A stretch of DNA of 64,000 nucleotides from Pseudomonas sp. UBA2684. GTDB lineage: Bacteria > Pseudomonadota > Gammaproteobacteria > Pseudomonadales > Pseudomonadaceae. Below, piece by piece: positions 20,559 through 24,316 of the stretch. The stretch is from assembly GCA_002354655.1 (NCBI GenBank), contig DELY01000053.1, positions 1 through 64,000 of the forward strand, given 5' to 3'. The notes under the pieces were generated by a model. That model made no database searches. It worked only from the letters and a program-made list of their open reading frames with translations, and was not told the DNA's origin. Every line of letters begins with the position of its first letter. Positions within the stretch are counted from its first letter, which is position 1. Both the position numbers and the translations under genes were made by a program.

Positions 20559-21704
20559 ATGGAATTCGAGAAACTGCTGCGCCTGATGGTGGAGAAAGGC
20601 GGCTCCGACTTGTTCATTACCGCTGGCGTGCCGCCGTCGATGAAGGTCAACGGCAAGATCATGCCCGTCACCAAGACGCCGATGTCGCCGGAGCAAACCC
20701 GGGAAACCGTGCATTCGGTGATGAACGAGCAGCAGCGCCGCGACTTCACCGAAAACCACGAGTGCAACTTCGCCATCAGCGCCCGCGGTGTCGGGCGCTT
20801 TCGCGTCAGTGCGTTCTACCAGCGCAACCTGGCCGGTATGGTGCTCCGGCGCATCGAGACCAACATCCCGACGCTGGACGACCTCAAGCTGCCGGAAATC
20901 CTCAAGAAACTGGCGCTGACCAAGCGTGGCCTGGTGCTGTTTGTCGGCGCCACCGGCACCGGTAAATCCACTTCGCTGGCGGCGATGATCGGCTACCGCA
21001 ACAGGAACAGCAGCGGCCACATCATCTCCATCGAAGACCCGATCGAATATATCCACCAGCACCAGAGCTGCATCGTCACCCAGCGCGAAGTCGGCATCGA
21101 CACCGAGTCGTTCGAGGTGGCGCTGAAGAACACCCTGCGCCAGGCGCCGGATGTGATCCTTATCGGTGAGGTGCGCACCCGCGAGACCATGGACCATGCC
21201 GTGGCCTTCGCCGAAACCGGTCACCTGTGTCTGGCTACCTTGCACGCCAACAACGCCAACCAGGCGCTGGACCGGATCATCAACTTCTTCCCCGCCGACC
21301 GGCAGAATCAGGTGTGGATGGACCTGTCGCTCAACCTCAAGGCCATCGTTGCCCAGCAGCTGATTCCCACTCCGGATGGCAAGGGTCGCCGTGCGGTGAT
21401 CGAGGTGCTGATCAATACCCCGCTGGCCGCCGACTTGATCCGCAAGGGCGATGTGCATGAACTCAAGGCGCTGATGAAGCGTTCCACCGAGCAGGGCATG
21501 CAGACCTTCGATCAGGCGCTGTACAACCTCTACAGCCAGGGCGAAATCACCTATGAAGATGCCTTGTTGTATGCCGACTCGGCGAACGACCTGCGTCTGA
21601 TGATCAAGCTGGGTTCGGAAACCGACGGCGATCATCTGTCGAGCATGTCCCAGGGCTTGTCGCTGGAAGTCAGCGAGGAAAATCCGGGTCGGCGTTTCCG
21701 CTAA
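20559..21704 (+). CDS. pilU: Type IV pilus accessory retraction ATPase PilU
   Basis: A 381-residue PilT paralogue that supports retraction force together with PilT. Walker A is GATGTGKST, and the Asp box SIEDPIEYIHQH and Walker B region PDVILIGEVRT are intact. The C terminus extends beyond PilT with an acidic tail, as in PilU. The 3' end overlaps the convergent downstream gene by 35 bases (21670-21704). Confidence 0.96.
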   Translation: MEFEKLLRLMVEKGGSDLFITAGVPPSMKVNGKIMPVTKTPMSPEQTRETVHSVMNEQQRRDFTENHECNFAISARGVGRFRVSAFYQRNLAGMVLRRIETNIPTLDDLKLPEILKKLALTKRGLVLFVGATGTGKSTSLAAMIGYRNRNSSGHIISIEDPIEYIHQHQSCIVTQREVGIDTESFEVALKNTLRQAPDVILIGEVRTRETMDHAVAFAETGHLCLATLHANNANQALDRIINFFPADRQNQVWMDLSLNLKAIVAQQLIPTPDGKGRRAVIEVLINTPLAADLIRKGDVHELKALMKRSTEQGMQTFDQALYNLYSQGEITYEDALLYADSANDLRLMIKLGSETDGDHLSSMSQGLSLEVSEENPGRRFR

Positions 21705-22548
21705 CCCCCGCGCTGCGCGCGGTGTTGTGGCGAATACGCTTACCGGCCTTGTGCGCGACGGCTTGTGCCTGGCCGTTGCGCTGCGCCCCGGCCCGCGCTT
21801 GACTCATCAGTTGCGGAATCAACGGGCCTTCCGGCAGGTTCTTCCAGAACCGTACCGGCAGACTATTCTCCAGCACGCTGCGGTTCAGGCGCGCCGGGTT
21901 GAAGGTGCTGCCGTAGTAAGCCAGCCATAACGCTTCGCCTTCATCGTCCTGCGCGCGCGCCAGGCGTTGCCAGTCCACGGGGCAGGGTTTGGCGTAGTGC
22001 AGCTGCTGGCCATCGCAGTACACGCCGTCCTCCGGCGTGGCGATTAACCAACTGTGCTGGCCCATGCGCTCGGCGAAATGCGCCGAAGCGCTGGCCAGAA
22101 TGTCGTGGGCCGGCTCATGCCACGCCACGAACTGCGGAGGCCCGGCGGCGGCAGTGCGCGGGTGGAAGCGCAAAAAAGCGTGCAGATGATGGGCCTCACG
22201 GCGTACCGATTTGAGGCGTTTGTGCAACTCACTGCCATCGCTGTCGCCGGGCAACATGGCCGCAAGGTCGCCCTGGGCCACTCGCCAGAGGATGCGGTAG
22301 AGCAGGCTCCAGCGGTTGTCGACGCGAAATTCTGCGGCGCTTTGCAGCTGTTCGAGCAGTTGCCGTGGAATGCGCGGTGTCCTGTCTGGCGGGGTAACTG
22401 CTAGCGGCAGCGTAGGCTCATCGAACAGGCCGCTGTTGTCCTCATCGCTCGACCAACTGATCTGGTGCGGTGCAACGGCCTGTTGTAACAGTTCGCGCGC
22501 GTGCTGGCGCCAGCCGGCGAAACTGCCGTCGAAACGGATGCAGTGCAT
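21670..22548 (-). CDS. Putative DNA metabolism protein, TIGR03915-type partner of a radical SAM protein
   Basis: A 292-residue protein beginning MHCIRFDGSFAGWRQHARE, with the DUF4130-like core RREAHHLHAFLRFHP and WLIATPEDGVYCDG. Members of this family occur beside a radical SAM protein, and some are fused to a uracil-DNA-glycosylase-like domain. No such C-terminal fusion is present: the protein ends in a short basic tail. Its ATG overlaps the upstream stop by one base (TAATG), so translation is coupled and the pair forms one operon behind a LexA box. The biochemical role is unknown; DNA repair or modification is inferred from family fusions and the promoter. Confidence 0.82.
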   Translation of the reverse strand: MHCIRFDGSFAGWRQHARELLQQAVAPHQISWSSDEDNSGLFDEPTLPLAVTPPDRTPRIPRQLLEQLQSAAEFRVDNRWSLLYRILWRVAQGDLAAMLPGDSDGSELHKRLKSVRREAHHLHAFLRFHPRTAAAGPPQFVAWHEPAHDILASASAHFAERMGQHSWLIATPEDGVYCDGQQLHYAKPCPVDWQRLARAQDDEGEALWLAYYGSTFNPARLNRSVLENSLPVRFWKNLPEGPLIPQLMSQARAGAQRNGQAQAVAHKAGKRIRHNTARSAGVSGNADPDFPR

Positions 22549-23759
22549 TACCAGAGTGCCATCTGTGCGGGGCTTTCGCTGAGTTGCTGGCGTAGCAGCA
22601 GGGATTCGCTGGTCGCCTGCAATGGGCGGTAATCCTGGGTGATGATGAAGGGTTTGGCTTTTTCCAGGGCGCAGCGCAGGCGTGTGAGGTCATCGAAGCG
22701 GATGCGCTTTTGCCGCCTCAACGCGACCAGGCGCTTGGCGCTCAGCACGCCAATACCTGGGATGCGCGCGATCATGCTCGGTTCAGCACGGTTGAGGTCA
22801 ACCGGGAAATGCTCGCGGTTGTTCAGCGCCCAGGCCAGCTTGGGGTCGATATCCAACGCCAGGTTGCCGGGGCCGCTGAGCAGTTCGCCGGCCTCGAAGC
22901 CGTAACCGCGCATCAGAAAATCCGCTTGGTACAGGCGGTGTTCGCGCAGCAGCGGCGGCGCTTCGAAGGGCAGGCTTTTGGGGCTTTGCGGGATCGGGCT
23001 GAAGGCCGAATAGTAGACGCGGCGCAAGCGATAGCTGCCATACAGCGCCTGGGCGGTGTGCAGGATGGTGCTGTCGTCGGTGGCGTCGGCGCCGACGATC
23101 ATCTGTGTGCTTTGTCCGGCGGGGGCGAAGCGCGGCGAACCTTTCTCCTCCCTGGCTTGGCTTTCGCCTTGGTGGATCGAGTGCATGGCCTGTTTGATGG
23201 TGAGCACCTGTTTTTCCGGCGCCAGGCGAATCAGGCTGCTTTCGGTTGGCAGTTCGATGTTCACGCTGAGGCGGTCGGCGTACCGGCCCGCCTCGGCAAT
23301 CAGCAGGGGGGCGGCGTCGGGGATGGTCTTCAGGTGGATATAGCCGCGAAACTCGTGCTCTTCGCGCAGCAGTTTGGCCACGCGGATCAACTGCTCCATG
23401 GTGTAGTCGGCCGAGCGAATGATCCCGGAGCTGAGGAACAATCCGCTGATGCAATTGCGCGCGTAGAAATCCAGGGTCAGGGTCACCACCTCTTCCGGGG
23501 TGAAGCGCGCCCTCGGTACGTCGCTAGAGCGGCGATTGACGCAGTATTGGCAGTCGTACAGGCAGAAGTTGGTCAAGAGGATTTTCAGCAACGCCACGCA
23601 GCGGCCGTCGGGGGTGAAGCTGTGACAGATGCCCATGCCATTGGTGGCGCCGAGGCCGCTCTTGCCCTTGGAGCTGCGCGTCGGTGCGCCGCTGCTGGCG
23701 CAGGACACGTCGTACTTGGCGGCGTCGGCGAGTACGGTGAGCTTGTCGATCAGTTGCAT
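22548..23759 (-). CDS. Putative DNA modification/repair radical SAM protein (TIGR03916-type)
   Basis: A 403-residue protein. Cysteines 66, 70 and 73 (NFCLYDCQYCVN) form the radical-SAM cluster site, with other conserved Cys residues at 20, 45 and 54. A helix-hairpin-helix-like DNA-binding motif (IARIPGIGVLSAKRLVALRR) sits at about residues 333-352. The family is always found with the TIGR03915 protein encoded just downstream. No substrate is known. A near-consensus LexA box ends 17 bases before the start codon, which strongly suggests induction by DNA damage. Confidence 0.86.
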   Translation of the reverse strand: MQLIDKLTVLADAAKYDVSCASSGAPTRSSKGKSGLGATNGMGICHSFTPDGRCVALLKILLTNFCLYDCQYCVNRRSSDVPRARFTPEEVVTLTLDFYARNCISGLFLSSGIIRSADYTMEQLIRVAKLLREEHEFRGYIHLKTIPDAAPLLIAEAGRYADRLSVNIELPTESSLIRLAPEKQVLTIKQAMHSIHQGESQAREEKGSPRFAPAGQSTQMIVGADATDDSTILHTAQALYGSYRLRRVYYSAFSPIPQSPKSLPFEAPPLLREHRLYQADFLMRGYGFEAGELLSGPGNLALDIDPKLAWALNNREHFPVDLNRAEPSMIARIPGIGVLSAKRLVALRRQKRIRFDDLTRLRCALEKAKPFIITQDYRPLQATSESLLLRQQLSESPAQMALW

Positions 23760-23775
23760 GGGTAGATCCAGTTAA

Positions 23776-23791
23776 CTGTTTATATATACAG
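23776..23791 (-). promoter_or_regulatory. LexA (SOS) box upstream of the radical SAM operon
   Basis: CTGTTTATATATACAG fits the gammaproteobacterial LexA consensus CTGT-N8-ACAG and differs from the ideal CTGTATATATATACAG at one position. It ends 17 bases upstream of the radical SAM start codon and would overlap its promoter. The TM2 gene on the plus strand starts at 23918, 127 bases away, and is less likely to be the target. Confidence 0.85.
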
Positions 23792-23917
23792 TATTGTGGA
23801 TTGCCCGGCCGGCTTCAAGCGGTTCGTTGCGTAAAGCCTGCCGACGGATTTCCCCTCCACTGGAAACCTCGCGTAGATTGAGGCGTCAGATAGATCTCAT
23901 GCCAGCAGGAGGCAGAC

Positions 23918-24316
23918 ATGCAGCGACAAGATACCCATAGCAAACTCATCGGTTACTTACTGTGGATCTTCGGATTTCTCGGGGCGCACCGCTTCTATTA
24001 CGGCAAGCCGGTCACCGGAACCATCTGGTTTTTCACCCTCGGTTTGTTGTTCGTCGGCTGGATCATTGACCTGTTCTTGATCCCGGCGATGGACCGCGAG
24101 GCAGACCTGCGCTTTACCGCCGGCGAAACCGACTACAACGTCGCCTGGATTCTGCTGACCTTCCTCGGCATTTTCGGTGTGCACCGCATGTACCAGGGCA
24201 AGTGGATCACGGGAATCATCTACCTGTTCACCGGCGGCCTGTTCCTGATCGGCGTGCTCTACGATTTCTGGACGCTGAATACCCAGGTGTCGCTGAAGAA
24301 CGCGGCGCGCGGGTAA
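23918..24316 (+). CDS. TM2 domain protein (NINE family)
   Basis: A 132-residue membrane protein with two TM2 repeats. Each has the pattern GxxGxHRFYxGKxxTGxxxxxT: FLGAHRFYYGKPVTGTIWFF near residue 20 and GVHRMYQGKWITGIIYLFTG near residue 88. Four transmembrane helices are expected. GGAGG lies upstream of the ATG. Function is unknown. It is divergent from the SOS-controlled operon. Confidence 0.85.
   Translation: MQRQDTHSKLIGYLLWIFGFLGAHRFYYGKPVTGTIWFFTLGLLFVGWIIDLFLIPAMDREADLRFTAGETDYNVAWILLTFLGIFGVHRMYQGKWITGIIYLFTGGLFLIGVLYDFWTLNTQVSLKNAARG

Follow-up and report, generated by a model that had tools for sequence, protein, structure and literature searches.

Operons that pair a uracil-DNA glycosylase (UDG) with a helix-hairpin-helix (HhH) radical S-adenosylmethionine (SAM) protein, COG1573-COG4277, are described as being under LexA-type control in Bacteroidetes and cited as such for Verrucomicrobia and Alphaproteobacteria in the accessible part of a published report (PMC8565304). 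In 2013 DUF4130 was described as an enzyme with a predicted role in mutagenesis (PMC3765255, accessible part), and UdgX bonds covalently with abasic DNA according to the accessible text of another paper (PMC10359453). We analyzed a gene pair of similar composition in the first 64,000 nucleotides of contig DELY01000053.1 of Pseudomonas sp. UBA2684 (hereafter the window). A radical SAM gene of family TIGR03916 is followed there by a partner gene of family TIGR03915, which contains DUF4130, and is preceded by a 16-bp palindrome resembling a LexA (SOS) box. The best overall reading of the evidence, to which we assign a probability of roughly 0.6, is that the pair encodes an SOS-induced, clamp-docked radical SAM enzyme acting on damaged nucleotides.

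We take COG4277 to correspond to TIGR03916, and the homology of the COG1573-COG4277 pair to the one described here rests on these COG numbers. In the accessible part of its description (PMC8565304), that operon is likewise paired, LexA-controlled and assigned a predicted repair role; no clamp motif is mentioned in that part, and the window pair differs in its gamma-type CTGT-N8-ACAG box and UDG-less partner. The original prediction presented the pair as an uncharacterised SOS system. This is apt in that no reaction was found in the literature searched, but LexA control has already been published for relatives from three further groups, as far as the accessible text goes (PMC8565304), and is not new in kind. 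Both window proteins score far above the curated cut-offs and are full members of TIGR03916 and TIGR03915, families for which the same literature yielded no function. Nor did it yield a report of LexA control of the pair in Pseudomonas, of a clamp-like tail or of UdgX decay there, most subscription papers lying outside its coverage.

The palindrome, CTGTTTATATATACAG, differs from the ideal LexA box CTGTATATATATACAG by one mismatch, as had been predicted, and is the only site in the window within three mismatches of the ideal (0.01 expected; 1 of 100 shuffles). The bare frame CTGT-N8-ACAG also has its single occurrence here; 0.59 occurrences are expected and at least one was present in 45 of 100 shuffles of the window, hence the frame alone is weak evidence. 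The closeness of box and gene noted earlier stands, but the distance of 17 bases does not: 17 is the coordinate difference, and 16 bases intervene.

Conservation of the box was assessed in 124 Pseudomonas loci encoding 118 distinct proteins, some loci being repeats; 112 came from a sample of 149 genomes, one was that of genome G405 and 11 were others. In 123 of these loci the start is preceded, at a distance of 8-24 bases, by a box with no mismatch (67 loci) or a single one (56 loci); the box of the sole exception, L167, has two. The control rate was 86 in 4527 segments of 118 bases each from the same loci. Conservation extends slightly beyond the searched pattern: in 119 distinct segments, the T and A before it are present in 100%, the T after it in 97% and the next A in 83%, while positions further from the box carry 0.03-0.4 bit, apart from a single one that reaches 0.68. 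The original prediction had pointed to the promoters of related Pseudomonas as the place where the box might prove absent, and there it is kept. A chance origin of the palindrome, or a function for the divergent TM2 gene instead, is extremely improbable. The expectation of 0.59 frames per window would be compatible with chance, but the box precedes the radical SAM gene in all but one Pseudomonas locus, while TM2 adjoins in only 23 of the 124. Since the whole pilU/TM2 neighbourhood of the window was seen in only 20 of the 124 loci within the flanks read, while the box persists, the box goes with the pair.

In the source genome the CTGT-N8-ACAG frame occurs 25 times and a reversed control pattern 20 times, so most of these frames are noise. 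Nine of the 25, mainly with AT-rich cores, were picked by eye and inspected. Four precede expected or plausible SOS genes, namely yebG, lexA, a PA0069-family radical SAM gene and topoisomerase III, and for the other five no SOS gene could be named. The site of yebG, 40 bases upstream of the gene, is identical to CTGTTTATATATACAG in all 16 letters. The topoisomerase III gene (L002 on C19, box at 2285-2300 of the locus) is a candidate SOS gene with CTGTATATCCATACAG upstream. The PA0069-family gene (L003 on C30) is preceded, at 20 bases, by a LexA-type box (2271-2286 of the locus); its product resembles the TIGR03916 enzyme in being a radical SAM protein with a clamp-like C-terminal peptide, QLALL, but belongs to another NCBIfam family (NF033668).

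Beyond Pseudomonas, lineage groups were inferred: loci of the same class were assigned to Gammaproteobacteria as GTDB defines them, with Burkholderiales included, and those of the same phylum but another class to Alphaproteobacteria. Locus L141 was grouped with Xanthomonadaceae, where the tree places it too. Of 85 alphaproteobacterial loci, 81 have an exact GAAC-N7-GAAC, or the complement of this motif, at most 110 bases upstream (control 14/4804), and CTGT-N8-ACAG lies within the same distance in 21 of 24 other gamma/beta loci (control 19/1445), L120, L199 and L247 being the exceptions. These are also the motifs of the lexA promoters: GAAC-N7-GAAC was found in all seven alphaproteobacterial genomes tried, four of them hosts of the loci without an exact motif, and a CTGT-type box in all four gamma/beta genomes tried, including the hosts of L199 and L247. 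Both verrucomicrobial lexA promoters tried carry TGTTC-N4-GAACA, which is present near the start, with at most one mismatch, in three of seven verrucomicrobial loci over the cut-off. The family of genome G221 is the best natural control. A CTGT frame, with one mismatch, was found in only 1 of its 19 loci, and G221, the one genome of the family searched for LexA, has only a short LexA-peptidase match of 62.8 bits, below the cut-off of 110.95. The conserved Pseudomonas box, the host-matched motifs elsewhere and the near absence of the box in the G221 family strongly support LexA control of the gene pair, and on these sequence grounds we hold it to be very likely.

Table 1. Features of the gene pair and its surroundings in the window.
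Feature	Position	Strand	Remarks
LexA (SOS) box CTGTTTATATATACAG	23776..23791		gene strand reads CTGTATATATAAACAG; 16 bases before the radical SAM ATG
Radical SAM gene TIGR03916, 403 aa	22548..23759	-	NCBIfam match
HhH segment, residues 319-371	22647..22805	-	HHH_3 below cut-off; ComEA/RuvA similarity
QMALW, last five residues, Q399 to W403	22551..22565	-	clamp-binding-like C-terminal peptide
Partner gene TIGR03915/DUF4130, 292 aa	21670..22548	-	profile matches; model mean pLDDT 89.7
Divergent TM2-domain gene	23918..24316	+	neighbour outside the unit
Convergent gene, which we take to encode a PilT/PilU-type ATPase	20559..21704	+	3' end overlaps the partner's end; adjoins the pair in 20/124 Pseudomonas loci

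The enzyme matches NCBIfam TIGR03916 with an E-value of 5.1e-163 and 543 bits (cut-off 343.5). This was the sole family returned by an NCBIfam search at E 0.001; the model of spore photoproduct lyase (SplB) was not compared directly. The Pfam Radical_SAM match, at 28.6 bits, falls just under its cut-off of 29.5. The C-terminal HhH of the original prediction is present as a sub-threshold match of Pfam HHH_3 to residues 319-358 (23.1 bits, cut-off 27), together with a weak similarity of residues 290-366 to ComEA and RuvA chains (E 0.016-0.05). An alignment of 52 sequences has 101 invariant columns. Among them are six cysteines: C66, C70 and C73 of the CX3CX2C motif, and three more outside it, C20, C45 and C54, with the spacing C-x24-C-x8-C. 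The structure model has a mean predicted local distance difference test (pLDDT) score of 88.1, with residues 46-52 and 400-403 below 50.

The solved folds nearest to this model are lipoyl synthase and HydE, tied by Z-score, with 10-14% identity in the matches listed. Lipoyl synthase has a different cysteine spacing and is not known to carry an HhH. A fold of this kind brings up the alternative that the pair modifies DNA rather than repairing it, by an SOS-induced insertion of an atom or group such as sulfur with a second Fe-S cluster like that of lipoyl synthase. We consider this unlikely: HydE, biotin synthase and others lie within about 2 Z units of lipoyl synthase, so the fold ranking is uninformative, the C-x24-C-x8-C spacing is unlike the lipoyl synthase pattern as we know it, and residues 46-52 belong to the low-confidence part of the model. 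Another alternative is SOS-controlled modification of RNA, protein or nucleotides instead of DNA. Substrates of many radical SAM enzymes, the solved fold neighbours among them, are tRNA, protein or small molecules, as their functions are generally understood, but the HhH, LexA-type control in multiple lineages, the clamp-like tail and the fused uracil-DNA-binding domain of relatives all favour DNA and make this alternative quite unlikely.

The partner matches TIGR03915 with an E-value of 2.2e-55 and 188 bits (cut-off 112.25), and its residues 78-240 correspond to DUF4130 (E 1.8e-32). As had been read earlier, the two genes are coupled by a TAATG at 22546-22550, in which the stop of the enzyme gene overlaps the start of the partner gene. 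The overlap is 4 bases in 98 and 1 base in 22 of 123 Pseudomonas pairs, and none of 110 Pseudomonas loci has enzyme and partner on opposite strands. Over all lineages the partner was located in 236 of 240 loci; of the remaining four, L140 and L143 have it about 3 kb away and L179 and L195 stop at a contig end. Co-occurrence was counted in a sample of 299 Pseudomonadota genomes, with both families scored over the NCBIfam cut-off. All 53 genomes with TIGR03916 have TIGR03915, but three genomes of one genus (G345, G362 and G431; g81) have TIGR03915 alone, and the predicted constant co-occurrence thus holds from the side of the enzyme. A truncated match below the cut-off in G218 is the only other break of pairing in the sample. 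Both families also have matches in the control genome of Caulobacter vibrioides.

By family name, 49 of the 50 rows in the partner's structure-similarity list are presumably DHH/DHHA1 proteins, which we treat as a lead only. The identification of DUF4130 as a RecJ-type DHH protein was not adopted, being unsupported by the Foldseek E-values, by a RecJ/AlaRS profile comparison and by the invariant columns, which contain no DHH motif.

It had been predicted that some partners are fused to a UDG-like domain and that the one in the window is not, and both statements agree with our results. The C-terminal domain of the partner is UdgX (TIGR03914) in all four relatives scanned. A partner length of at least 400 residues makes a fused domain likely in 73 of 83 partners from Alphaproteobacteria, 15 of 24 from other gamma/beta loci, 3 of 4 from Xanthomonadaceae and neither of the 2 from Verrucomicrobiota. 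While a partner of this size is common in the alpha and gamma/beta relatives, NCBIfam and Pfam searches gave no UDG domain match for the window partner, so UdgX with its RRxH loop is absent. A UDG-like region is present in only five of 123 Pseudomonas partners (L015, L020, L026, L027 and L033), all of them long. All five lack the RRxH loop with its crosslinking histidine, which is present in 72 of 96 long partners overall. Because the Pseudomonas forms lack UdgX or RRxH, the core pair appears to work, or at least to persist, without UdgX. The fusion of UdgX in most relatives suggests deaminated or abasic-type damage as a present or past target. Elsewhere in the source genome, a UDG-superfamily match is split over two frames (L251/L252, C50:4375-4837), which could reflect either a disrupted gene or a fault in the assembly.

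The last residues of the enzyme resemble a peptide that binds the beta sliding clamp. The bacterial clamp-binding consensus is QL[S/D]LF or QxxLF in the accessible part of a paper of 2025 (PMC12309361); in QMALW the Q and L agree with it and W replaces F. Similar tails recur in the family, with QLSLF and QLELF dominating in Alphaproteobacteria and QMGLW and QMALW in Pseudomonas. A strict pattern, Q[LM][SDEAGTQ]L[FLWI] within the last 16 residues, was found in 123 of 124 Pseudomonas, 63 of 85 alphaproteobacterial and 14 of 24 other gamma sequences, and a looser one in 77 of 85 and 24 of 24 of the latter two groups. The strict pattern occurs elsewhere in none of the 240 enzymes and in 0.08-0.16% of shuffled tails. 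If six letters are allowed, a tail is present in 19 of 19 members of the nearly box-less G221 family (QLALF, QLSLGF and similar). The pLDDT below 50 at residues 400-403 is as expected for a docking peptide. From these patterns, docking of the enzyme on the beta sliding clamp is probable. No link between the TIGR03916 family and the clamp was found in the literature searched, most subscription papers being outside its coverage. Of the texts consulted, PMC3901139 speaks of ImuB and the clamp in general terms only, and PMC5554334, PMC1839093 and PMC10776899 yielded nothing that bears on the pair.

The DinB-type polymerase of the source genome ends in QLELFAP, and the likeness in form of the two tails is one reason to consider an accessory role in translesion synthesis. 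The pair would then provide a clamp-docked factor that shields uracil or abasic sites or hands them to DinB-type polymerases, with radical chemistry secondary. The fusion in relatives of UdgX, a covalent holder of abasic sites (PMC10359453, accessible part), the predicted mutagenesis-related nature of DUF4130 (PMC3765255, likewise) and the box at 123 of 124 Pseudomonas loci would all fit this role. Against it, the cluster cysteines and the 101 invariant columns exceed the needs of a scaffold, and the window pair is without UdgX; we regard such a role as rather unlikely.

The HhH, the SOS control, UdgX in relatives and the clamp-like tail make it plausible that the pair acts on DNA lesions, and we favour such lesion processing with moderate confidence. 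Of the original proposal that a damage-induced pair acts on DNA lesions, LexA control is thus strongly supported by conservation and the lesion role is only plausible. In the mechanism that we propose, LexA on the box would repress both genes as one SOS operon, and DNA damage would release it through RecA-driven cleavage of LexA. The TAATG junction would couple translation of the two proteins. The enzyme would be an Fe-S radical SAM protein that holds DNA by its C-terminal HhH, and docking of its last residues on the beta sliding clamp would lead to action at stalled forks or behind them. As an obligate companion, the DUF4130 partner would present the nucleotide or shield it, and in most relatives UdgX on the partner would grip uracil or abasic sites. 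A 5'-deoxyadenosyl radical would then repair or convert the damaged nucleotide on clamp-loaded DNA. The computation itself shows the box, the overlap and family membership of the genes, their pairing, the conservation of box and tail and the loss of UdgX, whereas LexA binding and repression, clamp binding and DNA at forks as the substrate are the steps that we infer. In the most specific version, the radical SAM enzyme would be docked at the replisome and would convert damaged nucleotides where they lie in stalled forks, DUF4130 serving as a modular damage holder with or without a crosslinking UdgX. This version is tentative and, taken as a whole, falls short of being probable.

Several observations weigh against an SOS-induced, clamp-docked enzyme acting on damaged nucleotides. 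A promoter scan of 21600-24000 called no sigma-70 promoter; a terminator scan of the locus found none either. Four of the 85 alphaproteobacterial loci are without the exact motif despite host LexA, two of which, L216 and L236, have by eye a GAAC motif with a mismatch. Neither the CTGT nor the GAAC box was found at the four Xanthomonadaceae loci though LexA exists, no CTGT box was found at the Comamonadaceae loci L199 and L247 although their hosts have LexA, and four of the seven verrucomicrobial loci over the cut-off are without their own LexA motif. Six lexA-type loci from the four xanthomonad genomes were read, and each genome has one with TTAG-N6-TACTA, four in all. Because the lexA promoters there carry a motif and the pair does not, the pair has apparently escaped from LexA control in Xanthomonadaceae and the two Comamonadaceae. 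The tree has two changes between CTGT and GAAC states, and a single CTGT-box clade is not rejected (p-AU, the approximately unbiased test value, 0.114); the tree suggests that the type of box tracks the host and not the descent of the gene, which in view of this value we do not claim. The strict tail is present in only one of three Verrucomicrobiota and none of four Xanthomonadaceae sequences. In Pseudomonas, 59 of 60 distinct tails end in Trp (QMGLW, QMALW, QLGLW) and not in the consensus Phe. QMGLF was measured as a weak clamp binder in B. subtilis, and Gly at position 3 weakens binding (PMC12309361, accessible part), so docking may be weak in Pseudomonas given both the Trp and the Gly. Finally, uracil targeting by the UdgX domain is, to judge from the Pseudomonas proteins, not essential in this genus.

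The four Xanthomonadaceae loci (L141, L192, L222 and L224) have in common a palindrome, TCTCA-N5-TGAGA, at most about 50 bases upstream of the enzyme gene. The lexA promoters tried showed no such palindrome, and it may belong to another regulator or to a hairpin.

A sister subfamily of TIGR03916 in Verrucomicrobiota, below the cut-off (19 loci, L316-L334), was compared by eye. Its members mostly have DLACACG in place of SCASSG, are without the GICH and GRC cysteines and stop soon after the HhH with no clamp-like tail. Selenocysteine encoded by in-frame TGA in verrucomicrobial relatives was considered and rejected, the TGAs being, by eye, natural stops just after the HhH.

Relatives of the enzyme are present in 158 plasmid records, of which 142 are predicted non-mobilizable, and ten records in the phage collection match. 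PHROGs gave one weak match of the enzyme to a general radical SAM family (E 0.0021) and no match to the partner. We rejected a phage origin of the gene, having inspected one of two records labelled Acinetobacter phage, which looks like a bacterial chromosome (L305, CAKLQH020000003.1; 240 kb, with glyS, glyQ and the gene pair). A defence system was also rejected; PADLOC models gave no match to the enzyme and one negligible match to the partner (E 0.069).

TIGR03916 is widespread: 112 of the 149 Pseudomonas genomes sampled have it, as do, at scores over the cut-off, 53 of the 299 Pseudomonadota genomes, yet the literature searched reports no reaction for it. SOS control in several lineages and probable clamp docking would narrow the search for its substrate to damaged DNA at forks. 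The UdgX-free form of Pseudomonas offers the core reaction apart from the uracil-crosslinking module and should be well suited to biochemistry. If the fork-docked conversion of damaged nucleotides proves true, the pair would represent a kind of DNA repair in which the clamp brings radical chemistry to the replication fork.

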